From assembly GCA_032906765.1 (NCBI GenBank), contig JAJTZB010000011.1:1-41233 (forward strand): a stretch of 41,233 bases of DNA, given 5' to 3'. This document shows, one piece after another, positions 6,547 to 27,770 of this stretch; the first letter of the stretch is position 1, and the number at the start of each line of letters is the position of its first letter. The notes under the pieces are model-generated. The model searched no databases. It was not told the DNA's origin and saw nothing but the letters and a program-made list of their open reading frames with translations. Position numbers and translations under genes: made by a program. This stretch comes from Nitrososphaerales archaeon (lineage in GTDB: Archaea > Thermoproteota > Nitrososphaeria > Nitrososphaerales > Gagatemarchaeaceae).

Positions 6547-6755
6547 GCAGGCCAGCCCTTCCCCCGCTTGTTCTGAGACACACCTTATTCAAGGTCATCA
6601 AGTCATACCGGTTTTGAAAGCCTGCCGACTGAACTTAGGCTAGTTGGTCGCTCTAGACCCTATTCCACGCGTCTGCTCGGCATCGCGTATACCTCCGTCA
6701 CAGAACGATGCCACGATAAGCGTAAGCTGTGCAGACGTTGTCACTCGGACAATCA

Positions 6756-6899: not shown

Positions 6900-6917
6900 A
6901 AGGAGGTCGTTCTGGCC

Positions 6918-8087
6918 TCAGTATCTGAGCATCTTCGGGTCGACCTGCTCCGCCCACGCCTTGATTCCCCCGTACAGGTTCCTCGTCTTTGCGTAGCCCG
7001 CCTTCTTCAGAAACTGGACGGCGTACGAGCTCCTGATCCCGGTATGACAGTACACCACGATCGTCTCGTTCTTGTCTAGTTCCTTCGTCCTGAGCGGGAG
7101 CTGCCCCAGTGGGACGAGCTTGGCGCCTTCGATGTGGCACAGCTGATATTCGTAGGGTTCCCTCACGTCCAGCAGCAGCGGCTTCTCACCCCTGTCGATT
7201 GAGCTCTTGAGACCAATCGGGGTAATCTCACCGTTATCCTCCACAGCCTTCCTCTTCACTCCACAGAACTCCTCGTAATCAATCAGCTTCGTAATCCTTG
7301 GCTTGGTTCCGCAGACAAGGCACTCGGGATTCTTCTTGATCTTCAACTCGTTGAATGATGTATCCATGCTGTCGAACAAGAGCAGCCTCCCGGATAGCGA
7401 GGCTCCCTTCCCGAGCAGTATGTTGATTGCTTGGTTTGCCTGGACGGCGCCTACGATGCCCGTGAGCACGCCCAGCACCCCTGCTTCTGCGCACGACTGG
7501 ACCGACTCCGGTGGAGGGGGCTCGGGGTAGAGGCACCTGTAGCAGGGCCCAGCCTCGGTCGAGAAGACGGAGACCTGCCCGTCGAACCTGAAGACACTGG
7601 CGTACACGTCTGGCTTCCCCAACAGGACGCAGGCGTCGTTGATCAAGTACCTGCTCGGGAAGTTGTCGGTGGCGTCAATCACAACGTCATAGGGGCCGAG
7701 AATCTTCAGCGCGTTCGAGGAATCGAGCCTCTCCCGATGGACTTGGACGTCGACGTTCGGGTTGATTGAGAGTAGACGAGACCGCAGTAGCTCCGCCTTG
7801 GGCCGACCCACGTCGGCCTCGGAGAAGAGGAACTGCCTGTGGAGGTTGGACAGTTCGACGACGTCGTTGTCGACAATGCCTATCCTTCCCACACCCGCCG
7901 CTGAGAGGTAGACGGTAGCCGGGATTCCCAGTCCGCCTGCACCGACAACAACTACTGACGAAGCCTTGAGCTTGCGCTGACCGTCCATTCCCACCTCGGG
8001 CATGACTATGTGCCTGCTGTACCTCGCCTTCTCGTCGTCGGAGAGTTCCGGCAAGGTCATCGGCAAAGGCGTGTCGTGGTTCGGCAT
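6918..8087 (-). CDS. moeB: E1-like adenylyltransferase fused to a rhodanese domain (MoeB/MoeZ/ThiF family)
   Basis: These enzymes adenylate the C-terminal glycine of ubiquitin-like sulfur carriers (MoaD, ThiS, SAMP) and prepare them for thiocarboxylation. The protein has 389 residues. The E1-like domain has GAGGLG (about 50-55), DNDVVELSNLHRQ and DATDNF, and zinc-binding Cys pairs in CYRC and CLVC. The C-terminal rhodanese domain (about 285-385) has the active-site loop YCHTGIRS. ATG 8087 is chosen over the adjacent upstream GTG. It is divergent from the ABC exporter genes. It likely serves molybdopterin or thiamine synthesis, or tRNA thiolation. Confidence 0.93.
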   Translation of the reverse strand: MPNHDTPLPMTLPELSDDEKARYSRHIVMPEVGMDGQRKLKASSVVVVGAGGLGIPATVYLSAAGVGRIGIVDNDVVELSNLHRQFLFSEADVGRPKAELLRSRLLSINPNVDVQVHRERLDSSNALKILGPYDVVIDATDNFPSRYLINDACVLLGKPDVYASVFRFDGQVSVFSTEAGPCYRCLYPEPPPPESVQSCAEAGVLGVLTGIVGAVQANQAINILLGKGASLSGRLLLFDSMDTSFNELKIKKNPECLVCGTKPRITKLIDYEEFCGVKRKAVEDNGEITPIGLKSSIDRGEKPLLLDVREPYEYQLCHIEGAKLVPLGQLPLRTKELDKNETIVVYCHTGIRSSYAVQFLKKAGYAKTRNLYGGIKAWAEQVDPKMLRY

Positions 8088-8189
8088 CACGTGTCCAATC
8101 CGTGGAAGAGTCGGCGAGCCGTTTCCTGCTTAAGAACGGTTCGGTCGTAAGGTTCATGTAGCGACGAGAAGGGCGAGTTCTGAACACTG

Positions 8190-9035
8190 ATGCTGAAGCT
8201 GGACGGGCTCAGTTCTGGATACAACGGCGCCGAGGTACTGCACTCAATCTCGCTCGAGATTTCAAAGCCTGCAATCTACGTCGTGCTAGGACCGAACGGC
8301 GCGGGAAAAACGACGCTCTTCAGGACGGTGGCCGGCGTGCTGAGGCCCATCTCCGGGAAGGTGAGTCTTGACGGTCAGGACCTCTACGCGGCAAACCAAG
8401 TGCGTAGGGAGATCGGATACCTCTCCCACCTCACAGCAATGCCAGAGGAGATGACGGTTGCAAAGGCGTTGGCCTTCTACGGCGCAATCGAGGAAGGCGA
8501 CACTGACAAGGCACTAGAGCGTCTCGACCTCAGAGACCTCGCAAGCAAGAAGGTGAGCGACCTCAGCCAGGGCCAGAAGAAGAGGGTCTCGATAGCCAAG
8601 CTCTTCCTCAGGGAGAGGAAGCTGTACCTGATGGACGAGCCGACGTCGAACCTGGACCCTGTGGTCGCGAAGGAGGTGAGGGACATCCTCCTGAACCTGA
8701 GCAAGGACAGGTTCGTGCTCTACTCGTCTCACAACCTGTACGAGGCCCAAGAAATCGGCGACTTCATCGTCTTGATCAAGGATGGGAAGCTAGGGTTCTA
8801 TGGTAGGAAGGAAGAGCTGAGGACGGGAGGCTACCGGGTCGGCTTGAGGGCCTCGGGCGACCTCGCGGTGCTGTTCCCCGAAGGCAAGCGAGAGAAGGAA
8901 TACTTCGTTCTGGATGTAGCCGGACCGCAGGAGGTAGGAGCGATAGTGAAGAGGGTAGTCGATGCGGGCATGACGGTATACGAAGTGAAGGAGCTCGGGA
9001 ATCCTTTGGAAGACCTGTTCGGGGGAGGTAGATAG
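8190..9035 (+). CDS. ABC transporter ATP-binding protein (ABC-2 exporter type)
   Basis: This is the ATPase subunit of an export-type ABC transporter. The 281-residue protein has Walker A GPNGAGKTT (34-42), the signature LSQGQKKR, Walker B LYLMDEP, and the H-loop in SSHNLYEAQ. A C-terminal extension of about 80 residues follows the nucleotide-binding domain. It stops at TAG 9033-9035; the permease follows 43 bases later in the same reading frame. The pair forms an operon. The substrate is unknown. Confidence 0.92.
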   Translation: MLKLDGLSSGYNGAEVLHSISLEISKPAIYVVLGPNGAGKTTLFRTVAGVLRPISGKVSLDGQDLYAANQVRREIGYLSHLTAMPEEMTVAKALAFYGAIEEGDTDKALERLDLRDLASKKVSDLSQGQKKRVSIAKLFLRERKLYLMDEPTSNLDPVVAKEVRDILLNLSKDRFVLYSSHNLYEAQEIGDFIVLIKDGKLGFYGRKEELRTGGYRVGLRASGDLAVLFPEGKREKEYFVLDVAGPQEVGAIVKRVVDAGMTVYEVKELGNPLEDLFGGGR

Positions 9036-9077
9036 GAGACGGACATCTCTAGGCAGGTCTTCGTCAGGAGCGCAAGG

Positions 9078-9731
9078 ATGGGTGTGGTCTACGTCGCCAT
9101 CAGCATCGGGATGGCGATATTCATCACCGTCTCCTTCGGCGTGGGGGCGAGGGCAGGGAGCGTCATCTCCAACAGTGGCCAGGCGTTCGACCTAGGCTCC
9201 GTCTTCGGGCTGATGCTCGTGCCCTTCTTCGCCATCTTCGGGCTGATTATCACCACGCCGACCTACCTGCTCTTCGTCAACGACAAGAACGCGGGAGTGC
9301 TGGAGTACTTGCTCGCCACAGGCATGAGTCAGCGCGACGTCTTCAAGGGATACCTCAAGGCGGCATTGATGCTCTCTCTGCTGCCCATGGTGCCTGCTGT
9401 GCTCATCAGCGTCGTCCTCTCGGCATTTGGGCCGCCGTACGCATTGGGAGTTGGAGCGCTCGCGGTCGTGATGGGTTTGGCGGACGTGGCCTTGGTGACA
9501 TTCCTGATGACAGGGTTCAGCGCGATGCAGAGGAAGCCCACCGGGATGAATTCTCCAGTCGGGATAACCATAGGGGTGTTCCTAGTCCTCCCCGAGTTCC
9601 TGCTTCTGTTCCTCCTGCAGGGTGCGATAATCTGGCTCGACCTGGGGATAGCGGCGGCGCTGATGGTCACGACCGCCGTGCTATTGTCGTCCGTTGACCG
9701 ATTGATAATGCGTGAGAAGCTGTTGCCGTAG
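9078..9731 (+). CDS. ABC-2 type permease subunit
   Basis: A 217-residue integral membrane protein with about six hydrophobic helices, partner of the ATPase encoded just upstream. From ATG 9078 the first membrane helix begins almost at residue 1, which is unusual; permeases of this type normally carry a short cytosolic lead. The 14 in-frame codons between the upstream TAG and this ATG encode such a lead (ending RQVFVRSAR), but contain no ATG, GTG or TTG. Either an unusual start is used or some readthrough joins the two proteins. TAG ends the gene at 9731. Confidence 0.85.
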   Translation: MGVVYVAISIGMAIFITVSFGVGARAGSVISNSGQAFDLGSVFGLMLVPFFAIFGLIITTPTYLLFVNDKNAGVLEYLLATGMSQRDVFKGYLKAALMLSLLPMVPAVLISVVLSAFGPPYALGVGALAVVMGLADVALVTFLMTGFSAMQRKPTGMNSPVGITIGVFLVLPEFLLLFLLQGAIIWLDLGIAAALMVTTAVLLSSVDRLIMREKLLP

Positions 9732-9843
9732 GCGGCAGGATCTAAGGGCTTTCGGCTGAGTCTCAATCGAGTAGAGAGCCCCTAAAGAGTCTCCCGTAAC
9801 TTCGATCATTAAGTGACCGATTGAGCGGCGCGTCCCACGGAAG

Positions 9844-9853
9844 ATCTTAAACA
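9844..9853 (+). promoter_or_regulatory. TATA box of the peroxiredoxin gene
   Basis: ATCTTAAACA is centred about 27 bp upstream of ATG 9876, predicting a leaderless transcript. Confidence 0.45.
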
Positions 9854-9875
9854 TAGAGAATCGCGACGGCACGTC

Positions 9876-10352
9876 ATGCCACATGCGCCAAAAGTCGGTG
9901 AACGGGCTCCGGAATTCACACTCTACGATGCGGACAAGAAGGAACGGAAGCTCTCAGAGCTGCTCACCAAGGGCCGTAAGACAATCCTAGCATTCTTCCC
10001 AGGCGCGTTCACAGGCACGTGCACCACAGAGATGTGCACCTTCAGGGACATGTTCGACGAGCTGCAGAAACTGAACGCGGCGGTGGTCGGCGTTTCCGTC
10101 AACGACCCATTCTCGAACAAGGCGTTCGCGGAGAAGAACGGGTTGCAGTTTCCTCTGCTGTGCGATTTCAAGAGAGAGGTCACGCAGAGTTACGGCGTGC
10201 TCTGGAACGACCTGAGCGGAGTGAAGGGCTACAACGTTGCAAACAGGGCCATATTCGTCTTGAACGACAAGGGCAACATCGTTTACAGTTGGGTGGCTCC
10301 AAACCCAGGGACGCTCCCGTACTTCGACGAGATTAAAGGGGTCCTCAAGTAG
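9876..10352 (+). CDS. Peroxiredoxin (AhpC/TSA, Bcp/AhpE-like)
   Basis: Thiol peroxidase that reduces hydrogen peroxide and organic peroxides. The 158-residue thioredoxin-fold protein has the peroxidatic motif PGAFTGTC with Cys49, and a second Cys five residues later (Cys54), suggesting an atypical 2-Cys mechanism. Asn-Arg-Ala (NRAIFVL) follows at the position of the conserved Arg. The length is normal for the family. It is a single gene behind a TATA box, and cytoplasmic, since no signal peptide is present. Confidence 0.92.
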   Translation: MPHAPKVGERAPEFTLYDADKKERKLSELLTKGRKTILAFFPGAFTGTCTTEMCTFRDMFDELQKLNAAVVGVSVNDPFSNKAFAEKNGLQFPLLCDFKREVTQSYGVLWNDLSGVKGYNVANRAIFVLNDKGNIVYSWVAPNPGTLPYFDEIKGVLK

Positions 10353-14159: not shown

Positions 14160-14248
14160 GGCCCAGATAGTGTAGCTTGGTTAGCATAGGAGGCTGTGGA
14201 GTTCTTCGCGGAGACCTCCCGACGAGGGTTCAAATCCCTCTCTGGGCC
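14160..14248 (+). tRNA. tRNA-His (GTG) with a 14-nt intron
   Basis: The acceptor stem GCCCAGA/TCTGGGC pairs perfectly, and an extra 5' G at 14160 faces C73 at 14248, the G-1:C73 identity pair of tRNA-His. The anticodon stem is GGAGG/CCTCC with anticodon GTG at 14196-14198. Fourteen extra bases, about 14200-14213, lie after position 37, the canonical archaeal intron site. The T arm is GAGGG/CCCTC with loop TTCAAAT. The 3' end is the attachment site of the element that follows. Confidence 0.92.
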
Positions 14249-14250
14249 CT
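14237..14250 (+). repeat. attL-like core in tRNA-His 3' end
   Basis: CCTCTCTGGGCCCT, covering the T-stem 3' strand, acceptor strand and discriminator, is repeated exactly at 18851-18864. The integrase gene begins 53 bases downstream. Confidence 0.65.
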
Positions 14251-14274
14251 CTTATGTAGGCTCAAACCGTGGCG

Positions 14275-14282
14275 TTTTATAA
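14275..14282 (+). promoter_or_regulatory. TATA box of the integrase gene
   Basis: TTTTATAA is centred about 25 bp before ATG 14303, predicting a leaderless integrase transcript. Confidence 0.5.
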
Positions 14283-14302
14283 CCTAAAGCGCCTTTATTG
14301 AC

Positions 14303-15559
14303 ATGAGACCTCATTCCGAGGAAGGCCAGAGGTCCGTCGAGGCGTTGATGGCATCGATGAAGCTGGCCGACGCCACGAAGGCGGGCCATCTGATGAGGGT
14401 GAGCCAATATGCGGGGCACCTCAAGACGACTCCAGACGAAGTCGTGAGGGAAGCCAAGGCCCATCCAAGGAAGTTCGAGGAGACGTTCAGGGAGTTCGTC
14501 CAAGCTGTAGGCAAGAACGCCAGCCCTGCGACGACCTCGTCATACCGCCATTCCCTCAAGCGCTTCCTGGAAGTCAACCGCGTGACGAGCATAAACTGGG
14601 ACTACATCGGCGAGTTCGTCCCAAGCGCAAGGAGGGCCGGGCAGGACAGGGCGCCGACGCTGGAAGAGATCCGCAAGATTGTCGACGTCGCTGACCTGCG
14701 CATGAGGTGCCTGGCCCTCTTCCTGTGCTCCTCCGGGGCCAGGATCGGCTCGGTCCCCTACCTCAGATGGCGGGACGTCGAGGAAGTCGAATCGGATGGG
14801 GAGAAGCTCGCCAAGGTGACCATATACAGGGGAGAGCCCGAGGAGTACCTCACATTCATCACGCCCGAATGCTATCGGTACCTGCTCCAGTACAGGGAGT
14901 TGAGGGAGAAGATCGGTGAGAAGGTCGTCGGGATGTCTTTCGTGTTCACCACACAACCCAACGCGCGCAAGTTCGACCAGAGCAAGGTGGGAGTCGCGTC
15001 GGTGAAGACGTTGAAGAATCAGCTCGGTGAACTTCTACGACACCTGGGCATGCGGACTGTCATCAGCGAGAGGGGAGGCTACAAGAATTACGAGTTCAAA
15101 CAGGCGCACGGGTTCAGGAAGTTCTTCAAGACGAGGATGGAGATGTCGGGGGTCAAGCCCATCATAACCGAGATGCTGATGGGGCACGCGATCGGCGTCT
15201 CGGGGAGCTACATGAAACCCACGGAAAAGGAGCTCCTCGAGGAGTACTCGAAGGCGGTCGACAACCTGACAATCATCGGCAGGGCGGGCGGGAGAGTGGA
15301 CATCAAGAACGCGTTCAGGGAACAGCTGCTAATCGTCGCTGGGTTCAACGAGGAAGAGATTGGGAAGATGGACTTGGACAAGGTCTCCGACGAAGAATTC
15401 CAACAGGTGATTCGCCGGAGGCTGCTCGGCACGATGACGAACAACGGCAACCATCAGAAGGTCATACCGCTGGGCGAGGTCGATAGCTACATCTCGAAGG
15501 GATGGGAGTTCGTCGCCGCTCTGCCGAATGACAGGGCCATACTGAAGCTTCCCCGCTGA
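14303..15559 (+). CDS. Tyrosine recombinase / integrase
   Basis: A site-specific recombinase of the XerC/phage-integrase fold. The 418-residue protein has an N-terminal core-binding (SAM-like) region (about 15-110) and a catalytic domain (about 118-325). The catalytic set is visible: Arg147 in SSGARIGS, His269-x-x-Arg272 in HGFRKFF, His295 in MGHAIG, and the Tyr303 nucleophile in GSYM. A C-terminal tail of about 90 residues follows. The gene lies directly downstream of tRNA-His in the same direction, as expected when the tRNA is the attachment site. It appears intact. Confidence 0.93.
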   Translation: MRPHSEEGQRSVEALMASMKLADATKAGHLMRVSQYAGHLKTTPDEVVREAKAHPRKFEETFREFVQAVGKNASPATTSSYRHSLKRFLEVNRVTSINWDYIGEFVPSARRAGQDRAPTLEEIRKIVDVADLRMRCLALFLCSSGARIGSVPYLRWRDVEEVESDGEKLAKVTIYRGEPEEYLTFITPECYRYLLQYRELREKIGEKVVGMSFVFTTQPNARKFDQSKVGVASVKTLKNQLGELLRHLGMRTVISERGGYKNYEFKQAHGFRKFFKTRMEMSGVKPIITEMLMGHAIGVSGSYMKPTEKELLEEYSKAVDNLTIIGRAGGRVDIKNAFREQLLIVAGFNEEEIGKMDLDKVSDEEFQQVIRRRLLGTMTNNGNHQKVIPLGEVDSYISKGWEFVAALPNDRAILKLPR

Positions 15560-15595
15560 AGGGACCGTCTCACCGCGCGCGAGGGTATGCGTATG

Positions 15596-15667
15596 CTATA
15601 CTATAATTTGGTTTATAAGGTAATTGAGTTACTATACTATAATAAGACTTATAAATAAACAGACTTG
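15596..15667 (+). promoter_or_regulatory. Tandem 36-bp promoter/operator repeat of the AbiE-like pair
   Basis: CTATACTATAAT occurs at 15596-15607 and again at 15632-15643. Each copy is followed, after five bases, by TTATAA (15613-15618 and 15649-15654). The second TATA is about 35 bp before ATG 15687. Tandem identical sites upstream of an AbiEi-type gene fit the autorepression known for that family. Confidence 0.6.
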
Positions 15668-15686
15668 GGATAGTGTGGCGGGGTCC

Positions 15687-16400
15687 ATGCAAATCGAGAG
15701 AGACGGCAACGGACATACGGACACTTCTGATAGGCTGATCAGAGGAGTAAAGACCGACAGGGTCTATAGGATACTGCTCTGCGACGTCGAGGGAACCCTT
15801 ACGGGGTACAGGCTGGCCAAGCTTGCCCAGACAGAGCAGACACACGTAAGCCTCATCATCCGCGACCTCGAGAAGTCCAGCCTGGTCAGAGGTACCCGGG
15901 TGACCGACCACAAAGGACTCCTGGCCAGGTGGAGCCGCCTACACGTCAAGTACCAGTCGCAGAGCTACATGCTCCCTGACGTCTTGAGGGTCTTGAAGAA
16001 CACAGGCTTAGAGTACGGCCTGACTACGTACAGGGCGGAATCCATGGTCAACCGCTATCTCTTCCCATCCAAGACGGAGCTTTACATCCGCGGTGCCGAC
16101 TTCGAAGCGTGGCACGCGCTGCTGGTAAAGGAGGGCGCCCTCGTGGGCGGAGGGAATGTGAGGCTGAGGTGGTACGACGACCAGGTGCTCTACAACTCGT
16201 TCTCGATCGACGGCTACCGCATGGTCTCGGTACCGCAGTTGATAGTTGACTTGCTCAGGGAGGTCGGGTCGGCCGTCGAAGCGGCGAATATGATGATGCA
16301 GAAGTACGCAGAGCTCCTGACTCTCAACCGGCTCCATTCCGTTAGTCCCTTTCCCGTCGGTACGTACAAGACCAAGGTAGGTCGCCGTGTATCCAGATAG
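15687..16400 (+). CDS. AbiEi-like winged-helix regulator/antitoxin
   Basis: AbiEi proteins are antitoxins of type IV toxin-antitoxin systems and repress their own operon through an N-terminal winged helix. This 237-residue protein has a helix-turn-helix with LTGYRLAKLAQTEQTHVSLIIRDLE (split here as about residues 35-60) and a mixed alpha-beta C-terminal domain. ATG 15687 is chosen because an earlier in-frame start at 15624 would lie within the promoter repeat. Its end overlaps the next gene by 14 bases, a sign of coupling. The assignment rests on domain order and the partner gene. Confidence 0.7.
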   Translation: MQIERDGNGHTDTSDRLIRGVKTDRVYRILLCDVEGTLTGYRLAKLAQTEQTHVSLIIRDLEKSSLVRGTRVTDHKGLLARWSRLHVKYQSQSYMLPDVLRVLKNTGLEYGLTTYRAESMVNRYLFPSKTELYIRGADFEAWHALLVKEGALVGGGNVRLRWYDDQVLYNSFSIDGYRMVSVPQLIVDLLREVGSAVEAANMMMQKYAELLTLNRLHSVSPFPVGTYKTKVGRRVSR

Positions 16401-17172
16401 AGAGACAGAGTTCTCGCGGCGTTACCTGAAGAACATGCTGAGCGTCCTTCCCGATCCATACTGTCTGATGGGCGGCTGGTCGGTCTACCTTACGCTGAAG
16501 GAGAGGTTCAGAGAGACGACGGGTCGCGAGTACCCGGGTTCGAGGGACATCGACCTAGGGTTCCACCTTGACCCGAAGTGGAAACCGAGGGAGTTCGAGG
16601 GCTCGGCATTCGGTAAGGCCATCAAGAAGATACGGACGATGGGCTTTGAGCCGGAGTCCTTCAGGTTCGTGAAGCGTTACCACCTCTGGGAGGAGCGAGA
16701 GCTGACTCCTGAGGAGGAGAGAAGCTTGCCCCAGTATGACATCTTCAATCTGTACTTAGATGTCCTCGTCGACACGAAAGACCCGAAGAGGTTCAAGGTG
16801 GCAAGGTTCAAGGTGCTGGAAGAGCCGCTTCTGGCAAAGGTCTTCTCCGGGACCGGTTACGTCAAGACCGACCTGGACGGAGTCAGCGTGACGATGCCTG
16901 CGCCGCAGCTCCTGATGGAAATGAAGGTCAAGTCGTTCCCTGGCAGGACACAAGACGACAAGAGGACAAAGGACCTCATAGATTTGTGCGCCCTGGTGCT
17001 TTATTCCGGCGTTAGACCTCCTTTGATTTCCGCAACAGCGGCTGGGAAGAGGCGCTTGGAGAGGTTTGAGCGGGCGGTAGACGACACCAAGGAAGAAGAA
17101 TGGAACGGCGTCGCAGCAGCGCTCGACGTTTCTGCATCCGTGGCCAAAAGGACGGCCTCCTCAGTCAAATAG
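16387..17172 (+). CDS. AbiEii-like nucleotidyltransferase toxin
   Basis: AbiEii toxins are DNA polymerase-beta-fold nucleotidyltransferases. The 261-residue protein starts with GTG 16387. It has the fold's signature: Gly29-Gly30 in MGGWS, the acidic pair Asp54-x-Asp56 in SRDIDLGF, and a third acidic site in LYLDVLVD (Asp125/Asp129). A later helix carries QDDKRTKDLIDLCAL, like the Lys/Asp-containing helix of AbiEii. It overlaps the upstream regulator gene. It probably modifies RNA or another acceptor to arrest growth; the target is unknown. The catalytic residues look intact. Confidence 0.75.
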   Translation: MYPDRETEFSRRYLKNMLSVLPDPYCLMGGWSVYLTLKERFRETTGREYPGSRDIDLGFHLDPKWKPREFEGSAFGKAIKKIRTMGFEPESFRFVKRYHLWEERELTPEEERSLPQYDIFNLYLDVLVDTKDPKRFKVARFKVLEEPLLAKVFSGTGYVKTDLDGVSVTMPAPQLLMEMKVKSFPGRTQDDKRTKDLIDLCALVLYSGVRPPLISATAAGKRRLERFERAVDDTKEEEWNGVAAALDVSASVAKRTASSVK

Positions 17173-17685
17173 ATGCGGGTCGACGCAACCTCTTGGATGT
17201 GAATCCAACGAATGGAGAAACGCAGAACGATGTTCCTGTCTTGTTGCGGCGTGTTGGAGCGCGACTGCGACGTTACCGTCCTTCGGCCAGGTAATACTTT
17301 CAATTCTCCCTCCCTTACGAACGAGATAGTAATAGTAAGCGTTGGCGTTGTGGTTGGAATTCTTAGGAGAATTCTTGGTTGATGGATGTTTGCATCTTGG
17401 CTCGATGAGTTGAGTAAGTTGGGTGCGTGACAGAAATTTACCGCGCTCCTTGCTTGGATGTAAGTAGAATTAGTAATAATTGATCGAGCTCGTTGTTAAG
17501 CCTCCGCCTGACAATCTCCGCCAAGAGTGCTCGCCTCGAATTAGTGCCAGGCTTGCTCCATTGCGGGGCAGCTTGGTCTTTCGCCCTGCGCTCGCCAAGC
17601 ACCACGTGGATCTGTCTCGGAAGAAGCTAGAGCAGGTGTACGACCAAGCAGGGTTGAGAATCCTCTAGTGTGACGCCCAGAAACG
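17173..17685. other. Gene-poor stretch inside the tRNA-His element
   Basis: No protein gene is convincing; a 62-codon frame at 17480-17668 starts with TTG and lacks coding character. An inverted, AT-rich GAATTCTTAGGAGAATTC motif lies near 17360. The stretch may once have held element genes. Confidence 0.45.
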
Positions 17686-18471
17686 ATGATAAGTGCCACG
17701 TGTGTCACTGGAAGCCCAAGCTTGGAGTTGGGCGTACGAGGTTGGGCAAGGAGGAATCCCAGACTACTCGTCACGATAGCAGTTGTCCTTTGGCTGACCC
17801 TGACATCTTTCACTGGATTCATTCTGTACAGTGGGGTGCAGCTTCCGATGCCAACACTGCGGCTAGTCGTCTCCCCACCAGGTTACCCCATCGTGGGGGA
17901 GAGTTGGAACGTCCGGATTTGGCAGAGGGTATACCCAGGACAAGCTTGGGTCCCAGCCTCAAACTCAACGCTCTTGATGATATCAACTGCGGGCAATTTC
18001 GCCTTCGGTCCGACTAATGGCAGCGTGGTTGTCCCTTATTCCTCCGATTTAGGCGGAGTCAATTTCCTGGCCCAAAAGTCAGGATTCACCACCGCATCGT
18101 GGCAACCCCAGACTACATTCATCCAGAACGATTTTGCGTACTTAGTGATGGGATTCTACATCTTCGGAGGCGGGTTGTCATTCTACGAGATCTCGTTTGA
18201 ATTCGTCAAGCGGGGCCGCAGAAATCAGGTCTTGCGGGTGATCTCAATAGCGGCTGCGCTTTCAATCGGAACCGGGTATGTCTTGGCAGTAGTATGGCTT
18301 CAGAGATGGAGTTTCGGAACGGCGTGGGGATTTGGCAACGACATCCTCGACGGGATTAGATTCGATCCCGACCTCTTACTACTGACCGCGTTTAATGTTG
18401 TGATCTCTTCAGTTGTCCTGAAACTACAGAGGGCTGTGAACTCAGCGAAGCATGTGATCGGCTCTCCGTAG
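17686..18471 (+). CDS. Membrane protein with an extracytoplasmic domain, unknown function
   Basis: A 261-residue protein with one N-terminal membrane helix (about 27-50), an external region of about 90 residues rich in Pro, Gly, Ser and aromatic residues (55-145), and three further helices (about 148-168, 182-205 and 228-248). The external part resembles a beta-rich Ig-like domain in composition, which is only an impression. It lies inside the tRNA-His element and could be cargo or a surface function. No family is recognised. The true start may be a few codons later. Confidence 0.6.
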   Translation: MISATCVTGSPSLELGVRGWARRNPRLLVTIAVVLWLTLTSFTGFILYSGVQLPMPTLRLVVSPPGYPIVGESWNVRIWQRVYPGQAWVPASNSTLLMISTAGNFAFGPTNGSVVVPYSSDLGGVNFLAQKSGFTTASWQPQTTFIQNDFAYLVMGFYIFGGGLSFYEISFEFVKRGRRNQVLRVISIAAALSIGTGYVLAVVWLQRWSFGTAWGFGNDILDGIRFDPDLLLLTAFNVVISSVVLKLQRAVNSAKHVIGSP

Positions 18472-18937
18472 CTCATCCATGTCGCGAAGCCGCTCGTACC
18501 TCCTGGCGCCCCATGCAATGGATTCGAAGATTGCCCAGATTGCCTACAAGAATGCTTGCAAGTCTTTGGTCGGTTGTGACCAGCAAAGTTGGGTAGAGAA
18601 GGAAAAGGTGTCCTTCGGAAGTTGAGGGAAGTCGCGGGATTCTAGTGGGTTGGCACTTCACTCCGCGTGAATCTGGACTCGAAAAACTAGCCTCAAACCA
18701 GAGATAGAACGTTCGGTGGCAGCCACGAATGTGATGACTTCGTTTGACCACCTTCGTTATCCTTTAGACCAGCCTGCGACGATGATTTCGAGTTGGGTTC
18801 GTAAGGCGCCTTTCGAATGGTGTTTGAACCAACATAGGTGGACTCACATTCCTCTCTGGGCCCTTCATACCATCATCACGCTCGCGCGCTCTTCGTTCGA
18901 AAGCTTTTACTAAGATTCACAGAACTATGCTGGCAGG
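18472..18937. other. Intergenic stretch containing the right end of the element
   Basis: No protein gene is supported. The attR-like 14-mer lies at 18851-18864, about 75 bases before the cyclase-family gene. Confidence 0.5.
18851..18864 (+). repeat. attR-like copy of the tRNA-His 3' end
   Basis: CCTCTCTGGGCCCT is identical to 14237-14250 in tRNA-His and has the same orientation. The rest of the tRNA is absent here, as expected for the fragment displaced by integration. Confidence 0.62.
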
Positions 18938-19609
18938 TTGGTAGACAAGCTTCCATTCAGGAAGATTGTCGACCTGTCTGTCCCGTTCAAGAGTCTGGGG
19001 ACGCACGTCTTCCCGGGCTATCCCATGCCTCTGAGGGCTACGATGACGACCATACGGGACAACGGGTACTACTCAAGTGTGTGGACGTTTGTTGAGCATT
19101 CTGGGACCCACGTTGACGCGCCAGGGCATTTCCTTCAGGGCGCCCCGACGATTGACAAGGTCCCGCTCAGCACGTATGTTGGCAGGGGAGTGGTGCTGAA
19201 ATTTACTGGTCGGCGTCCCAACTATTCAATCACCAAGAAAGATATCGAAACAGGACTGCGGAAGAAGGAGCTCAAGGGGAAAGTCGGTAGCGGTTGGGTC
19301 CTACTGTTCTACACCGGGTACAGCGCGAAGGCAGGCACGCGAAGGTGGCTCGAGCACCCCGAGCTCAGTGACGAAGCGTGCAGGCTCATAACCAGACTGA
19401 AGGTCAATGCTATTGGTTTCGACGCGCCCAGCCCTGACCATGCCCCGTTTCCCGCCCACAAGATCCTGCTTCCGAAAGGGATCGCCCTGTTCGAGGGCCT
19501 GACTAACCTGAACAAGGTCATGGACAAGGACTTCGTCTTTGTCGGCGCTCCGCTTCCGCTTGTTGACGGGTCGGCCAGCCCCGTGCGGGCCTTTGCTCTG
19601 ATGATGTGA
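18938..19609 (+). CDS. Cyclase-family metal-dependent hydrolase (kynurenine formamidase-like)
   Basis: The family hydrolyses amide or ester bonds, as in N-formylkynurenine or isatin, using a metal held by an HxGTHxDxPxH motif. The 223-residue protein carries HSGTHVDAPGHF (about 55-66) and a second conserved region GFDAPSPDH. It starts with TTG 18938, which has GGCAGG just before it. It is the first gene after the integrated element and stands next to a block of nitrogen-compound catabolism genes. The exact substrate cannot be read from sequence. Confidence 0.87.
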   Translation: MVDKLPFRKIVDLSVPFKSLGTHVFPGYPMPLRATMTTIRDNGYYSSVWTFVEHSGTHVDAPGHFLQGAPTIDKVPLSTYVGRGVVLKFTGRRPNYSITKKDIETGLRKKELKGKVGSGWVLLFYTGYSAKAGTRRWLEHPELSDEACRLITRLKVNAIGFDAPSPDHAPFPAHKILLPKGIALFEGLTNLNKVMDKDFVFVGAPLPLVDGSASPVRAFALMM

Positions 19610-19613
19610 GACT

Positions 19614-20957
19614 CTAGAAGAGGTCCAGGAAGTGGGAGACCTCCCACTGCGTAACTTGGTCGGCGGCCTGAGACACCTCGAACGACCTTTGCGTGACATA
19701 CTCCTCGAACAGCGTGCCGCCCAGAGTCCGTCGAATCAGGTCGTCCTTCTCCAACTCGGAGAGGGCCTCGCCGAGGGATCTCGGGAGAAGCTTCAGGTGG
19801 CGGGAGACGCGCTCACTGTCGTTCATCTGAGAGGCGTCGAACATCAGGGGCTCGCCCGGGTCGAGTTTCCGCTCCATCCCCTCGATTCCAGCGGCAACGA
19901 CGCAGGCGAGCAGCAGGTAGACGTTACACGCGTTGTCAGTCAGGCGGAGTTCTATGCGCGTCGAGTCGCCCCGCTCGTCAGGAATCCTGACTGCCGCCCC
20001 CCGGTTTCCGGGCCCGTAGGTCACGGCGTCGGCGTTCCACCTCCCCGGCAGGAGCCGCTTGTATGAGTTCACCGTGGGCGCGCCTATGGCACAGAGAGCT
20101 CGCGTGTGCTTCAGAACGCCTCCGATGAAATGGTAACAGGACTGGCTGAGACCCAGCTTTCGCCGGTCACGAGAATCGGAGAACAGGTTCCTCCCCTTCG
20201 GGTCGGTTAGGTTGAGGTGCAGGTGCAAGCCGCTGCCCCACCAGTCCGCGCCTATCTTGGGCATGAACGAAGCTGTCAGACCGCGACTCATCGAAACTGC
20301 CTTGACCGCGTCCTTGAAGTAGACGTATGCGTCGCCTGCCCTGAGACAGGGCTCAGGGGCAAGGTCAACCTCAAGCTGCCCGTGCCCGCCTTCGACGTGC
20401 GCCTTGACTACCTTGATTTCCATCGAACTCAACGCCTTCACGATGTCTGTGAGGAGCTCCCTGTGCTGTTCGTATCCCGCTTGGGACTGTATCGAACTTG
20501 TGTCAGCTGGGACAACTCTGTCCCCGTCGTGACGGACGAGGTGGAATTCGCTCTCGAGCCCGGTCATCACCCTGTATCCCCTTGATCCAGTTTCCTCGAG
20601 GACTCTCCGGAGCACGCTCCTCGCGCACAGAGGAGAGGTGGAGCCGTCGGCCTCGTGGACCTCTCCGATGAAGCGAGCGGTACCTGGAGAGTAGGCGGGG
20701 AAGACGAGTGTGGTCTGGTCAGGGATGACGGAGACGTCGCCCTGAGAGATGTCGAGTTTCGAGCCAGGCGTGAGAGGTGTGACTGCGTTCATATCCAGGT
20801 TAGCCCGCGCCGTCTTGAAACCGTTCCGCAGAATCGACTCGACGTCCGAGACTACGAGAGGTTTCGACCGGGTCACGCCGCACAGGTCTACGTACGAGAT
20901 GCTTACCATTGAGGAGTTGTGCTGAGAGAGCCGCTTCGCAACCGCGCTCTGTTTCAA
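19614..20957 (-). CDS. Glutamine synthetase-like enzyme (FluG/gamma-glutamyl amide ligase type)
   Basis: A 447-residue member of the GS family. Metal and substrate motifs are present: GLESEFHLV, EGGHGQLEVD, GSGLHLHLNL, the Asn/Gly-rich GNRGAAVRI loop, and RIELRLTDNACN. The Asp-50-like loop of true GS and its adenylylation site are not evident. TTG 20957 is used because a symmetrical TTTAAA box lies about 27 bp upstream. The divergent neighbour is a FluG-like amidohydrolase, and the two correspond to the two halves of fungal FluG. It more likely makes gamma-glutamyl amides than assimilates ammonia. Confidence 0.88.
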   Translation of the reverse strand: MKQSAVAKRLSQHNSSMVSISYVDLCGVTRSKPLVVSDVESILRNGFKTARANLDMNAVTPLTPGSKLDISQGDVSVIPDQTTLVFPAYSPGTARFIGEVHEADGSTSPLCARSVLRRVLEETGSRGYRVMTGLESEFHLVRHDGDRVVPADTSSIQSQAGYEQHRELLTDIVKALSSMEIKVVKAHVEGGHGQLEVDLAPEPCLRAGDAYVYFKDAVKAVSMSRGLTASFMPKIGADWWGSGLHLHLNLTDPKGRNLFSDSRDRRKLGLSQSCYHFIGGVLKHTRALCAIGAPTVNSYKRLLPGRWNADAVTYGPGNRGAAVRIPDERGDSTRIELRLTDNACNVYLLLACVVAAGIEGMERKLDPGEPLMFDASQMNDSERVSRHLKLLPRSLGEALSELEKDDLIRRTLGGTLFEEYVTQRSFEVSQAADQVTQWEVSHFLDLF

Positions 20958-20980
20958 CGCACGACTCGGGAGTGGCGTTG

Positions 20981-20990
20981 CTTTAAAAGG
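20981..20990. promoter_or_regulatory. Symmetrical TATA box shared by the GS-like and amidohydrolase genes
   Basis: CTTTAAAAGG contains TTTAAA, which is the same on both strands. It is about 27 bp from TTG 20957 on the minus strand and about 50 bp from ATG 21035 on the plus strand, so one core element may serve both genes. Confidence 0.5.
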
Positions 20991-21034
20991 TCAGACTTCG
21001 GCTTCTGCAGGTCTCGAGAAGAGGCAAGCATCAG

Positions 21035-22183
21035 ATGAGGATCGAACTCGACGACCAACCAATCACGGACATTCACTGTTTCTCGTTTGCGCCGCAGCGA
21101 AGGCACACGCGCTCATCGCTGACGAAGCTCTTCATGGCGGGCGGGCCTACTGTGATGAGCATCAATCCAGAACTCCGCACAGAAGACCTTGCGGCTTCGG
21201 TGGCGTACAGAAGGATGATTCACCACCTGTCCCTGCTTTTCAAGATGTCGGGCGGGGAAAATGAAGTACTTAGGAAGAGGAACGAGCTCGCGAAGAGGTA
21301 CGATTCTTACCTTCGATTACTGTTCGGGGACGCCGGGATTGAGAGGATGGCGCTCGACAGCGGACTCGAGCCCGTTTCCTTCGCAGAGTTCAGGAGGCAT
21401 GCGCCAGCAAAGCTGTACAGAATATTCAGAATCGAACCGCTGATTAAAGACTTGATCGCCAAGTCAGGTGGCTTCGACGAACTCTTTACCTCATTTGATG
21501 AGACAATCCAGTCTGCCGTTAGGAAGCACGGCTTCGTTGGATTCAAGTCTGTGATAGCTTACCGGACCGGGCTCGATGTAGGCACGCCGACCGAGCAGGA
21601 AGCCAGGACTTCCTTTAGGCTGCGGAAAGAGAATAGGGAGAAGGAGTGGTTCGGCCCCAGAGTGAAGCCGCTGCGTGACTTCCTACTGAACCACGTTGCC
21701 GAGCGCTCATCGAAACTTCGAGCGTTCCTCCAGATTCACACTGGACTCGGCGATACTGACGTTGTGGCGGAGAGGTGTAATCCGTTGCTACTGTCCAAGT
21801 TCCTGAAGCAGGAGAAGGTGTTGAAGACTCCCGTGATCTTGATTCACGGCGGCTTCCCGTACACTGACGAAGCCGCTTGGTTGAGCAGCGTCTTCCCGAA
21901 CGTCTACTTCGAGCTCTCAACTCCGTTCCCGCCCACCTACCTCCCGGCCCTGTCGAAGGAGAGGTTCAGGCGCGTCCTTGAAGTGGTGCCCACAACAAGG
22001 ATTGTTTACGGGTCGGACTCTATCGAGACTCCCGAGTTCCACTGGCTATCGGCAAAGCTCTCGAAGCTCGCCCTCGGAGAGACCCTTGGAGACCTCGTGG
22101 ACGATGGAGTACTGGATGAGCAGGGAGCCCACGGGGCCGCCGCTCGAATCCTCGACCGCAACGGCGCGGGACTCCTCCGGTAG
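21035..22183 (+). CDS. Amidohydrolase-family protein (FluG N-domain-like)
   Basis: A 382-residue TIM-barrel amidohydrolase. It shows GFKSVIAYR, QIHTGLGD, HGGFPYTDEAAWLS, FPNVYFELS and YGSD, the series typical of the FluG N-terminal half. The first metal motif reads DIHCF, so only one His of the usual HxH is present, a deviation that may change metal binding. In fungi this domain is fused to a GS-like domain; here that partner is the divergent gene. It ends eight bases before the convergent gamma-glutamyltransferase gene. Confidence 0.85.
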   Translation: MRIELDDQPITDIHCFSFAPQRRHTRSSLTKLFMAGGPTVMSINPELRTEDLAASVAYRRMIHHLSLLFKMSGGENEVLRKRNELAKRYDSYLRLLFGDAGIERMALDSGLEPVSFAEFRRHAPAKLYRIFRIEPLIKDLIAKSGGFDELFTSFDETIQSAVRKHGFVGFKSVIAYRTGLDVGTPTEQEARTSFRLRKENREKEWFGPRVKPLRDFLLNHVAERSSKLRAFLQIHTGLGDTDVVAERCNPLLLSKFLKQEKVLKTPVILIHGGFPYTDEAAWLSSVFPNVYFELSTPFPPTYLPALSKERFRRVLEVVPTTRIVYGSDSIETPEFHWLSAKLSKLALGETLGDLVDDGVLDEQGAHGAAARILDRNGAGLLR

Positions 22184-22190
22184 CAAGGCG

Positions 22191-23753
22191 CTAGGCGGAG
22201 ACAGCCGCCCCGAACCTTCTGGGGTCGGCCCCGCCCGTTGCCATCCTCTTGTCCTGATCAATCAGGACGGCTTGGACACCGCCAAAGTAGAGTTCCAGAT
22301 TGCCCATTACCTGTACGTCGCCCACCAGCCCTCGCAACTCACTGACAGTGGTCTCGTCAAATCCTCCTTCCACCATCAAACCCCCAGCAGTGGGATGAAT
22401 CCGCGGAGCAGCCAACGCCCTTCCCAGGGCCATCCCCCCGTCCAAGACGTTTGTCGTCACCTGAAAGATGGAACTGATGATTCGCTCAGAGCCGGCCCCG
22501 CCGATGACGAGGAAAGGGGACCCGTCCTTGAAGACGATTGTAGGGGACATGCTGCTGACCGGCCTCTTCCCCGCCGCCACGGAGTTGGGCCTTCCAGGAA
22601 CCGTGTCGAAGTCGTGCATCTCGTCGTTCAGGAGGACTCCCAGGCCCGGCACGGTGACGCCCGAGCCGAAGTAGCACTCGATTGTCTCCGTCGCAGAGAC
22701 GACGTTGCCTGCGGAGTCGATAACGCAGAAGTGCGAAGTGGAGCCAGGGCCGTCCGAGGAACGATTGCCTCCGGTGGGGTTTGTTCCAGACCAGATCTCC
22801 TCCGCCTTCTTCTGCACGTAGGATTTAGACAGGATCTGGCTGGTGGCGGCGTCGACGAATTCTGGGTCACCAAAGCTCGGCTTCTCGTCGAGCATCGACC
22901 TCAGGATATCTATGACCGCCCGGAACATCCCTGCCTTCGTGCTGGCACGAGCTCGATTGCCGAGCTCGGCGAGGATTTCGAGACCATAGATCAACAGCGT
23001 TCCGCCAGCGCTGGGCGGCGGCATCGAGACGATCCTGAACCCTCGAGCCTCCCCTTCCACCGGTCTGCGAACTTTGGGAGCGTACCTACCGAAGTCGTCC
23101 TCAGATAAGATTCCTCCGAGGCTCCCTACGAAGGTCGAGATTTCCTTGGATGTTGTCCCGCCGTAGAATCCCTCTGGCCCGTCTTTTGCCAACTTCGACA
23201 GAGTCTTCGATAGAAGCGGGAGCTTACTGAAGCGGGCCGATCGGCCGTCGACACCGAAGACGCGGGCGGACTCGGTGAAACGCTTCAGCTTGTCCAGCGC
23301 CCCTGTTCTGTTCTCCTTCAGAATCCTTTGCGAGAGGCTGGAAACCGAGACGCCCGACTTTGCTGCGACGATTGCGGGTCGGGCGACATCTCTGAACTTC
23401 ATAGTGCCGAACTGCTCCAGAAGGAGGGCGTGCCCAGATAGCGTTCCTGGCGTGGCGACGGCCAGAGGTCCCACGCTGTTTGCGTCTGCCGCGATACGCT
23501 GGAACATGTCGGCCGAGGACTTCGCTGGCGCCGTCTCCCTGTAGTCAAGGGCGGTTGTCTCTCCCGAGGCCAGATGAATCAGGGCGAAGCCACCCCCACC
23601 TATTCCAGAGAACGCTGGCTCGACCACCCCCAGCATCAGAGATGTTGCGACCGCGGCGTCTACAGCGTTACCCCCCATTCTCAGAATAGAGGCGCCTGCC
23701 TCGGATGCAAGCGGATGGGCTGAGGTGACCACGGCGTTGTGGAGCCTATCCAA
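22191..23753 (-). CDS. ggt: Gamma-glutamyltransferase
   Basis: An N-terminal nucleophile hydrolase that cleaves gamma-glutamyl bonds and transfers or hydrolyses the glutamyl group. The 520-residue precursor has GGNAVDAAVAT near the N-terminus, and the self-cleavage/nucleophile site at Thr339 in GSTSHFCVID. SMSPTIVF and GGAGSERI follow in the small subunit. No signal peptide is visible, so unlike many bacterial GGTs it is probably cytoplasmic. It starts with TTG 23753. It fits with the nearby GS-like enzyme and the permease. Confidence 0.93.
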   Translation of the reverse strand: MDRLHNAVVTSAHPLASEAGASILRMGGNAVDAAVATSLMLGVVEPAFSGIGGGGFALIHLASGETTALDYRETAPAKSSADMFQRIAADANSVGPLAVATPGTLSGHALLLEQFGTMKFRDVARPAIVAAKSGVSVSSLSQRILKENRTGALDKLKRFTESARVFGVDGRSARFSKLPLLSKTLSKLAKDGPEGFYGGTTSKEISTFVGSLGGILSEDDFGRYAPKVRRPVEGEARGFRIVSMPPPSAGGTLLIYGLEILAELGNRARASTKAGMFRAVIDILRSMLDEKPSFGDPEFVDAATSQILSKSYVQKKAEEIWSGTNPTGGNRSSDGPGSTSHFCVIDSAGNVVSATETIECYFGSGVTVPGLGVLLNDEMHDFDTVPGRPNSVAAGKRPVSSMSPTIVFKDGSPFLVIGGAGSERIISSIFQVTTNVLDGGMALGRALAAPRIHPTAGGLMVEGGFDETTVSELRGLVGDVQVMGNLELYFGGVQAVLIDQDKRMATGGADPRRFGAAVSA

Positions 23754-23830
23754 TCAAGACCGCCCAGCTTTGCACAATCCAGCGTCGAAACCTGTCAATT
23801 TTGGCTGTTCATAACCCAACACGTTAGGTT

Positions 23831-23840
23831 CATATATTTA
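23831..23840 (+). promoter_or_regulatory. TATA box of the APC permease gene
   Basis: CATATATTTA is centred about 27 bp upstream of TTG 23863, predicting a leaderless transcript. Confidence 0.5.
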
Positions 23841-23862
23841 CTTCGCGCGGAGCGTTGGCTGT

Positions 23863-25479
23863 TTGCAGACGAAGCAATTCGTCAGAGACGCGACCGGTCT
23901 CGTTCGGGAGTTCGGCGCCGTCGACACCTTGCTCTTCGCATCTGCGATGGTCTTCGCCCTGGTATTCACGATTCAGCAGTTCGCTTGGTTCTACGGCAGT
24001 ACGCTCGGGGCGAGCCTGCCGCTCACTCTCGTAGTGGCGGCCATTCCGTTCGTGTTCCTGATGCTGGCCTACTGGGCCATCGGCGTAGTGATGCCGAGGA
24101 CTGGAAACGACTACCTCTGGGTTGGCCGCATCTTCCGTCCCTCCATCGGTTTCGCTTGGGCGGCTCTCTACATGTTCGTCGTGTTCTTCGTGGCCTATGT
24201 GGGAGAGGTCTCGCCTTTCGCGACCGCCTTCTCCTCGGCGTTCACCGCACTTGGTCTCACAAGCAACTCTGCCTCGCTGATAGACCTTGGGACCTTCCTG
24301 GGGTCTTCCTGGGGAACTTTCATGCTCGCGGCTCTCTTCACGCTGCTCTTCGGCGTATTCGCAATCTTTGGGAACAAGCTAATCAAGGGATTCATGTACA
24401 CGACGTGGATTGTCGCCATAATCGGGATGATCCTGATGTGGTACATACTCGGATCGACGAGCAACGCCACGTTTGCGAGCAACTGGAACCAGATGATCGG
24501 GAGCCTCAATTCGAGCTACGCGTATTCGGCGCTGCAGAGCACGGCGATAAACAAGGCTGGGTTCCCCGGTAACGCCGTCGGGTTCGCCGCCATAGTCACG
24601 GCCCTTCCGTTCGCCTTCCTGTTCCTCTTCGGCGGAAACTACGCCAACGCTTTCGCTGGAGAGATAAAGAACGTGAAGCGGTCGATTCCTGTGGCGCTAT
24701 TCCTCTCGCTAATCTTCGGCGTAATCTACTGGTCGATTACCTCCACGCTCACTCTGAACGCGATAAACCATGATTGGATCACACCTGTAGGCTACGCCTG
24801 GCTGACCAATGGTGCCGGCTCCGCGGCATATCCACTGCCTTACGCACCCACTCAGACGCTCTTCCTCGCAGTCGCAGCGTACCCGAACAACCTGCTCATC
24901 TCCGTCATGTTCTTCACCTACCTCGTCGGGTCTCTCGGCGCCCTCTTCGCGTACTTCTGGATTCCGAGCAAGTACTTCTTCGCTTGGGCCTTCGACAGGG
25001 TGATCCCTAGCAAGTTCGCGAACGTCAGCTCGAGGTTCAACACGCCGTATGTTTCGATATTGGCCATAGTTGTGCTCGGAGTGGTCCTCTCCTACCTCTA
25101 CCTGATACTGGGCTACTTCACGTACTTCACGCTGGGGACTGTACTCTGGGGAGTCTCGTACATCATGCCTGCCTTGGCGTTGATGGCGTTCCCCTACGTC
25201 AAGAAGGACCTCTTCGCCACCGCGCCGGGCTGGGTCGGTAAGAAGGTTGCAGGAATCCCCCTCGTCACATTGGTGGGGCTGCTCACAGCAATCGGATTCG
25301 GTTACGTCGGCTTCGTCGCGTACACGAATCCTTTGATCACCGCACCCAACGTCAACAGTGTCCTGCTGGCACTGGCCGTGCTCGTCGTCGCCTTCGTCGT
25401 GTACTTTGCTAGCAGGTTTTACCACAAGGGCAAGGGGATGGATATCTCCATGGCCCTGAAGGAAATACCGCCAGAGTAG
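23863..25479 (+). CDS. APC-superfamily amino acid/amine permease
   Basis: A secondary transporter in the cytoplasmic membrane. The 538-residue protein has about 12 hydrophobic helices. The first is interrupted by a short polar stretch, and the region LMLAYWAIGVVMPRTGNDY holds the conserved Gly-Asn-Asp of APC helix 2. GNYANAFAGEIKNVKRSIP matches the APC loop before helix 7. Unusually long external loops occur near residues 195-230 and 305-345. The neighbouring genes suggest uptake of an amino acid, polyamine or ureide. Confidence 0.9.
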   Translation: MQTKQFVRDATGLVREFGAVDTLLFASAMVFALVFTIQQFAWFYGSTLGASLPLTLVVAAIPFVFLMLAYWAIGVVMPRTGNDYLWVGRIFRPSIGFAWAALYMFVVFFVAYVGEVSPFATAFSSAFTALGLTSNSASLIDLGTFLGSSWGTFMLAALFTLLFGVFAIFGNKLIKGFMYTTWIVAIIGMILMWYILGSTSNATFASNWNQMIGSLNSSYAYSALQSTAINKAGFPGNAVGFAAIVTALPFAFLFLFGGNYANAFAGEIKNVKRSIPVALFLSLIFGVIYWSITSTLTLNAINHDWITPVGYAWLTNGAGSAAYPLPYAPTQTLFLAVAAYPNNLLISVMFFTYLVGSLGALFAYFWIPSKYFFAWAFDRVIPSKFANVSSRFNTPYVSILAIVVLGVVLSYLYLILGYFTYFTLGTVLWGVSYIMPALALMAFPYVKKDLFATAPGWVGKKVAGIPLVTLVGLLTAIGFGYVGFVAYTNPLITAPNVNSVLLALAVLVVAFVVYFASRFYHKGKGMDISMALKEIPPE

Positions 25480-25537
25480 CCGCGCGTTCCTCTCTCCGAG
25501 AAAGTCTTATCATCTGAGAGTGCGCAACTGCGCGAAG

Positions 25538-26440
25538 ATGCAGGAAGCTGGGAGGGACTTCGTTGGGTATGGCAAGGAAACTCCAAAGTTCCGCTGGCCA
25601 GGTAACCGCAGGCTGGCGCTATCCGTGGTCATCAACTACGAGGAGGGCTCGGAGCACTCCCACGCGACCGATGGCATAGTGGAGGGTGTGGGTGAGTTCC
25701 TGCCAGTCGACATGCCAGTGAGGGACGTGGGGAATGAAAGCAGCTACGAATATGGGCCAAGGGTGGCGATATGGAGGATACTGGAGACGCTTAAGAGGTA
25801 CAGGGCAAAAGCAACGTTCTTCGCGACTGCGACCGCCCTGGAAGTGAACAAGGCTGCGGCGAGAGCAATCGTCGACCAGGGGCACGAGGTGTGCGACCAC
25901 GGCCTCAGATGGACGGAACACTACAGGTTCACCTACAGCCAAGAGAAGGACATGATTAGCAAGTCAGTGGAGGTCATAGAACAAGTCACGGGAAAGAAGC
26001 CGGTGGGGTTCTACGCCAGGGAACCGAGCGTCAACACGGTCGGGATTGTCGAGGAGCTGGGGAACTTCATCTATGAGTCGGACTCTTACAGCGACGACCT
26101 CCCCTACAGACGCGGAGGCAAGGGGATACTGATGCTCCCGTATACGCCGGACGCGAACGACTTCCACTTCCAGGCCCCTATGCACAGGTTCGCCAACTCC
26201 TCTGACTTCTTCACATACCTGAAAGACTCGTTCGACGTGATGCATGAAGAGGCGCAGAAGGCCTCCAAGATGATGTCTGTCGGGCTCCACTGCCGCGTCA
26301 TAGGTAGGCCTGGCAGGATTGTTGCCCTGAGGAACTTCCTTTCATACGCCACAAGGTTCGACGACGTCTGGGTGGCAACGAGAGAGCAGATGGCGAGGCA
26401 CTGGATTGAGCACGTAGAGCCGACGCTGAAGTCCGGCTAG
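25538..26440 (+). CDS. puuE: PuuE-type allantoinase / polysaccharide deacetylase-fold hydrolase
   Basis: PuuE allantoinase converts allantoin to allantoate. The 300-residue protein follows the PuuE pattern closely: DFVGYGKETP, NYEEGSEHS, YEYGPRVAIWR, TFFATATALE, ASVNT-like EPSVNTVGI, SDSYSDDLPY, and KMMSVGLHCRVIGRPGR. ATG 25538 is preferred because a TATA-like CTTATCATC lies about 26 bp upstream; a GTG at 25520 is less likely. It sits just downstream of the permease in the same direction. Family is strong; the substrate may be allantoin or a related cyclic amide. Confidence 0.85.
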   Translation: MQEAGRDFVGYGKETPKFRWPGNRRLALSVVINYEEGSEHSHATDGIVEGVGEFLPVDMPVRDVGNESSYEYGPRVAIWRILETLKRYRAKATFFATATALEVNKAAARAIVDQGHEVCDHGLRWTEHYRFTYSQEKDMISKSVEVIEQVTGKKPVGFYAREPSVNTVGIVEELGNFIYESDSYSDDLPYRRGGKGILMLPYTPDANDFHFQAPMHRFANSSDFFTYLKDSFDVMHEEAQKASKMMSVGLHCRVIGRPGRIVALRNFLSYATRFDDVWVATREQMARHWIEHVEPTLKSG

Positions 26441-26880: not shown

Positions 26881-26910
26881 GCGACTCCCAGCACCGCTCT
26901 TCCGTCGGCG

Positions 26911-27769: not shown

Positions 27770-27770
27770 A

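Follow-up and report, generated by a model that had tools for sequence, protein, structure and literature searches.

We analyzed a 41,233-nucleotide stretch (hereafter, the window) that makes up the entire contig C11 of a Nitrososphaeria-type archaeal metagenome-assembled genome (MAG; 1.77 Mb in 13 contigs, 95.6% complete), focusing on a compact unit located directly behind a tRNA-His gene, with all features of the unit on the forward strand. ARAGORN and Rfam both place a tRNA-His(GTG) gene with a 14-nt intron at positions 14161–14249; it is the single match for this tRNA in the MAG searched, and its 3′ end is intact. The unit that follows carries four open reading frames (ORFs): a tyrosine recombinase (integrase) of 418 aa (14303–15559), an overlapping two-gene operon encoding a putative AbiEi-like antitoxin (15675–16400) and a putative AbiEii/MenT-like nucleotidyltransferase toxin of 261 aa (16387–17172), and an orphan membrane protein of 261 aa (17686–18471) with about four transmembrane helices by eye, which has no homologue among 100 related genomes and no family match. 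The tRNA, the intact recombinase directly downstream of it, the overlapping AbiEi/AbiEii-like pair and the membrane protein had all been named in the original prediction for this DNA, and each is found as described. The size given there, 4.7 kb with the tRNA counted in, is corrected to 4,614 bp, measured between repeat starts. The accompanying claim that no replication gene is present holds inasmuch as none was found, but the winged helix-turn-helix (wHTH) protein of the operon may itself be one. Signature genes of proviruses, casposons or conjugation are absent from the matches of the four element ORFs.

The 3′ end of the tRNA gene recurs at the right end of the unit. The 14-mer CCTCTCTGGGCCCT at 14237 has an exact second copy at 18851, as previously noted, but it forms only part of a longer, imperfect repeat of 21 bp. 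In the ungapped comparison of the two attachment (att) site-like sequences, attL-like TCAAATCCCTCTCTGGGCCCT (14230–14250) and attR-like TCACATTCCTCTCTGGGCCCT (18844–18864), 19 positions are identical, including 14 contiguous ones. A 20-bp query with at most three mismatches matched the window twice, at the two repeats, and had no match in 100 dinucleotide shuffles.

The integrase frame is open and retains all catalytic residues (R147, H269-x-x-R272, H295 and Y303); its family matches are weak (PF00589, E 5e-5; archaeal XerA model XerA_Arch, E 2e-7). Homologues of this integrase in the comparison genomes, which represent other genera within the family and other families within the order, are located directly behind genes for tRNA-Lys, tRNA-Leu, tRNA-Ile, tRNA-Arg and others. 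At four of these loci, the tRNA 3′ end is repeated exactly further downstream, at 5.6 kb (19 bp), 8.7 kb (16 bp), 9.1 kb (16 bp) and 14.6 kb (20 bp). Among the loci examined, 6 of the 11 integrase-adjacent tRNAs have at least 13 bp of their 3′ end exactly repeated downstream, versus none of the 11 control tRNAs without an adjacent integrase, for which the longest repeat was 11 bp. The finding that AbiE pairs in relatives are often far from any integrase or tRNA might be taken to favor a chance assembly of an unrelated integrase remnant, a toxin-antitoxin (TA) pair and a fortuitous 14-mer; the clean shuffles and the 6/11 versus 0/11 contrast make such a coincidence extremely improbable, in line with the earlier view that a chance 14-mer match was unlikely.

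Several other loci of this integrase family show related arrangements. Two integrases in the same genome are encoded directly behind tRNA-Ile and tRNA-Arg (G000:C3, 38941 and 186160; L131 and L132), with no clear right att copy within the 20–30 kb searched. A compact 5.6-kb element at a tRNA with a 19-bp repeat (L135, G025:C3, 7431–13802) contains an ORF resembling, by sequence appearance, an Mrr-type endonuclease, and position 13802 has an extra 14-bp copy of its repeat, perhaps marking a second right end. At an intron-bearing tRNA with a 19-bp repeat (L123, G012:C1:134001–154000, reverse-complement coordinates 4031–9950), there is an ORF pair of HEPN/MNT appearance, and a second copy of the 19-bp repeat 4.5 kb further on is followed by the homologue most similar to the window integrase (56%); these are probably tandem elements at one tRNA. 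In a fourth case (L199, G013:C81, 78–1028), a single ORF combines, in frame, the N-terminal portion of an integrase with an AbiEi-like wHTH protein, and the AbiEii gene after it carries an internal TAG; a deletion seems to have joined the integrase and antitoxin genes here, with abiE once more directly behind int. A viral origin of the unit was considered and rejected, as scans of viral contigs yielded no relatives of the integrase or AbiEii.

We compared the surroundings of tRNA-His in relatives. In four of them (G012, G025, G006 and G029), the order AhpC–(BirA)–tRNA-His–homologues of the window genes at 28805, 29386 and 30000–tRNA-Ala(CGC) is largely kept, with tRNA-His inverted relative to it in G029, and no such element is present behind tRNA-His. 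Thus, the empty sites that the original prediction had proposed to look for are found at the level of gene order but not base-precisely, the genomes belonging to other genera only. The distance from tRNA-His to the 28805 homologue is 0.4–2.9 kb in relatives, and the window has two extra blocks at this locus, the integrase/AbiE unit and a 9.8-kb catabolic block (18938–28724). The presence of both could mean that the entire 14.5 kb from tRNA-His to 28.7 kb was inserted, the repeat at 18851 being internal or accidental. However, the 9.8-kb right block keeps its complete gene order in G030 and part of it in G029, at sites where neither a tRNA nor an integrase was found nearby, and a search of the window for the tRNA 3′ end revealed no additional copy near 28.7 kb; because of this colinearity and the missing third att copy, we reject the larger island as very unlikely. 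In addition, a promoter-like AAAGCTT element before the first gene of the block is conserved in all three genomes (window, G030 and G029), that is, up to the right side of the attR-like repeat. Because this host element begins ~34 bp right of the repeat, the right end of the unit would fall between 18864 and ~18898, matching the position predicted from the repeats. Taken together, the neighborhood of tRNA-His in relatives, the repeats at the two ends, the host promoter just right of the attR-like copy and the recurring tRNA–integrase arrangement argue for integration at tRNA-His by the unit's own integrase, as had been proposed.

The putative toxin is connected to known nucleotidyltransferase toxins by its fold and motifs. 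Its AlphaFold2 model (predicted local distance difference test score, pLDDT, 88) aligns with MenT1 8an4 at VIA Z 12.4 (163 aligned, 3.6 Å) and with MenT4 6y56 at VIA Z 11.8 (192 aligned, 3.6 Å), with further Z values of about 11 to MenT3, 11.2 to JHP933 and 8.2 to 6y8q. The four motifs that define AbiEii (I–IV: GG/GS, R-DhD, K-R and +DxxD; PMC3985639) are present as G29G30, S52RDID56, K180xxS183xxxR187 and K195DxxD199 and are invariant across 6 homologues; the spacing of motifs I and II is longer than published (23 versus 15). By motif comparison, as distinct from structural alignment, S52 has the same position relative to DxD as the regulatory phosphoserine/threonine S78 of MenT3 and T39 of MenT1 (PMC11375011). 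In profile searches, Pfam AbiEii was matched by 4 of the 6 aligned members (best E 1.7e-4), the best PADLOC match was at E 2.2e-4, and a sequence-only search of the PDB with the toxin alignment retrieved, besides chance rows, only the nucleotidyltransferase-like protein 5uvd at E 0.68. The toxin is present in 20 of 400 genomes of the class, and a scan of named organisms found a single relative of the AbiEii-like protein, in Nitrososphaerales archaeon A_CRE_07. Fold and motifs thus support the assignment of this protein as a diverged AbiE toxin.

The antitoxin frame (15675/15687–16400) overlaps that of the toxin, and the two genes are adjacent in this order at 18 of the 19 loci examined. Its GTG codon at 15675 lines up with the start of the G031 homologue; an alternative ATG is at 15687. 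The model consists of a wHTH domain, with Z 8–9 to CRP/MarR domains, and a C-terminal domain; 6y8q was not among the matches listed for it. A sequence-only PDB search with the antitoxin alignment retrieved MarR-type regulators near E 0.1. The AbiE identity given in the original prediction stands for the toxin by fold and motifs but is more provisional for the antitoxin, for which architecture, pairing and operator layout, rather than a family match, suggest an AbiEi-like protein. At a separate locus (L193, G307:C31, 1636–3506), an AbiE pair is located ~400 bp behind tRNA-Ile(TAT) with no integrase nearby, possibly a remnant of a similar insertion.

The control region before the TA genes is unusually well conserved, and its operator architecture is the least expected part of the unit. 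Two operator-like copies of 23 nt, the first of the form CTATACTATAAT-N4-GTTTATAA (15596–15618) and the second within the near-palindrome TTACTATACTATAATAA by the TATA box CTTATAAA (15632–15654), are 36 bp apart with a 13-bp gap and contain TATA-like sequences. The promoters of the window, G031 and G058 align across both copies and the TATA box. Of 17 related promoters, 14 have their best direct repeat at a spacing of 35–37 bp (in one case tied with another offset), the repeated sequence itself varying among groups (CTATACTATAAT, TATCGGT, TATATTACT, TAGGTTAA and others). The summed score at 36–37 bp is 219, whereas 2000 control draws from the upstream regions of other ORFs of the same loci reached at most 171; because some loci are related, these draws serve as a guide and not as a probability. 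Several second copies are perfect palindromes of 16–18 bp, such as TTACCGATATATCGGTAA; a search for palindromes alone was noisy in several loci, and the direct-repeat spacing is the robust signal. No extra operator copies were found near attL or attR at up to two mismatches. The alignment of the three promoters (window, G031 and G058) also suggests that GTG 15675 is the antitoxin start, and the transcript would therefore be leaderless or nearly leaderless.

The size of the unit, the length of its att repeats, its target and the lack of a recognizable replication gene agree with what is described for the cryptic integrated elements (CIE) of Thaumarchaeota (Krupovic et al. 2019, PMC6563490). Like the unit, CIE, with sizes from 2.6 kb, encode their own tyrosine integrase, insert into tRNA genes, including intron-bearing ones, have short att repeats (mostly <26 bp, median 17), carry wHTH genes and often have no recognizable replication gene. 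In contrast to CIE, a single TA operon makes up nearly the whole cargo here, AbiE being unmentioned in the text of that paper, and the unit lies close to the lower size limit of CIE and belongs to a different, Nitrososphaeria-type family. The cargo shares with AbiEi/AbiEii of Streptococcus agalactiae (PMC3985639) the antitoxin gene placed first, the overlapping toxin gene, a wHTH antitoxin, a nucleotidyltransferase toxin with the four AbiEii motifs and duplicated operator-like sites over the promoter. It differs in that the S. agalactiae operators are 23-3-23 inverted repeats and the operator-like sites of the window are tandem direct repeats 36–37 bp apart over an archaeal promoter, and in that its antitoxin is unrecognized by AbiEi family models. 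The toxin fold also resembles those of Mycobacterium tuberculosis MenAT4 (Rv2827c/Rv2826c) and MenAT1/3 (Z 11–12). At the Rv2827c promoter, the antitoxin binds each of the 23-bp sites separated by a 13-bp gap (PMC7319586); the window matches this 23-13-23 geometry, but the Rv2827c sites are described as inverted repeats in two pairs, unlike the single pair of direct repeats seen here. Finally, AbiE is carried on an integrated element and helps to keep it in the case of ICESsuHN105 of S. suis (PMC11062541), which, unlike this unit, is an integrative and conjugative element (ICE); no conjugation gene is recognized here, and there is no extra operator copy near att. The AbiE-like cargo is a diverged archaeal branch: its toxin agrees with AbiEii in predicted fold and in motifs, and its antitoxin resembles AbiEi in predicted architecture and not in family matches.

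We interpret the locus as a cryptic integrated element of 4,614 bp at tRNA-His, equipped with its own integrase and stabilized by an autoregulated AbiE-type (type IV-like, AbiE/MenAT) module, and assign this reading a probability of roughly 0.74. Several observations weigh against it. The attL-like and attR-like repeats differ at two positions. The genomes compared do not offer an empty tRNA-His site from the same genus, and it is for this reason that we infer the exact crossover junction. The AbiEii-like protein of the window alone has no Pfam AbiEii match (PADLOC AbiEii, E 0.054), the antitoxin matches no AbiEi model in Pfam, PADLOC or NCBIfam, and its C-terminal domain is nucleotidyltransferase-like at a modest Z of 7.7 on a model with pLDDT 74. 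The noncoding stretches 17173–17685 (~0.5 kb) and 18472–18843 (~0.4 kb) could be a sign of decay; together with the orphan membrane ORF and the two repeat mismatches, they would suit an immobile, decayed remnant kept only through its TA pair. We consider this unlikely, given the open integrase with its full set of catalytic residues, the nearly intact repeats on both sides and the two open TA genes with invariant motifs.

For an integrated element with a stabilizing module, we envisage the following scenario. The recombinase would have recombined the chromosomal tRNA-His gene with an attP site carrying its final ~20 bp, so that the tRNA stayed intact and an undamaged integrase gene came to lie just within the left end. 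The wHTH antitoxin would bind the two tandem operators 36 bp apart over the archaeal TATA/B recognition element (BRE) region and repress its own operon, and the nucleotidyltransferase toxin would block growth once the antitoxin disappears. MenT relatives modify tRNA 3′ ends. Retention of the element is the most likely main effect, because cells that lose the element would lose the antitoxin and be left with unopposed toxin; AbiE is known to stabilize a plasmid (PMC3985639) and an ICE (PMC11062541). Defense against viruses may be a second effect. Alternatively, the AbiE pair could be mainly antiviral cargo acting by abortive infection, the element being a small mobile defense island and retention secondary. 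Bacterial AbiE does confer abortive infection (PMC3985639), and sister elements seem, by sequence appearance, to carry defense-type genes (the Mrr-like ORF of G025 and the HEPN/MNT-like pair of G012). However, defense by archaeal AbiE is unproven as far as we found, with a recent survey calling the cellular target unknown (PMC12988326), and a lone self-regulated TA pair carried by a small integrated element has the classic layout of an addiction module; we regard a primary role in defense as possible, at somewhat worse than even odds.

With an integrase, one TA operon and one ORF of unknown function, the unit is a clear near-minimal example of how TA genes of uncultured archaea travel on elements integrated at tRNA genes. 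The AbiE/MenT-like toxin family of these archaea is missed or barely reached by current annotation models, and the promoter architecture is conserved enough to serve as a marker. A cassette this small would also allow a direct test of archaeal AbiE for retention versus defense. A broader proposal, which we consider rather doubtful, is that the tRNA-targeting integrase family recurrently carries, as a near-minimal addiction element, an AbiE lineage of archaea whose antitoxin is unclassified and whose operator architecture is its own (two direct repeats at 36–37 bp over the TATA box). Under this proposal, the antitoxin might influence excision as well, as in the S. suis ICE, coupling the integration state to toxin control.

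To the right of the element, the host catabolic block (18895–28724) encodes a cyclase, a glutamine-synthetase-like protein, an amidohydrolase, a gamma-glutamyltransferase, an amino-acid permease, a polysaccharide deacetylase, a nucleotidyltransferase-like ORF and a phosphoesterase. The genes from the cyclase to the deacetylase (18938–26440) form one block elsewhere in G030 and possibly represent a gamma-glutamylation pathway for the use of amines or amides. The solitary ORF at 27002–27769 has no Pfam match and bears a nucleotidyltransferase-like signature (LLGGIAV...LDLDF); it adjoins a metallophosphoesterase gene, an arrangement conserved in G030 and G029.

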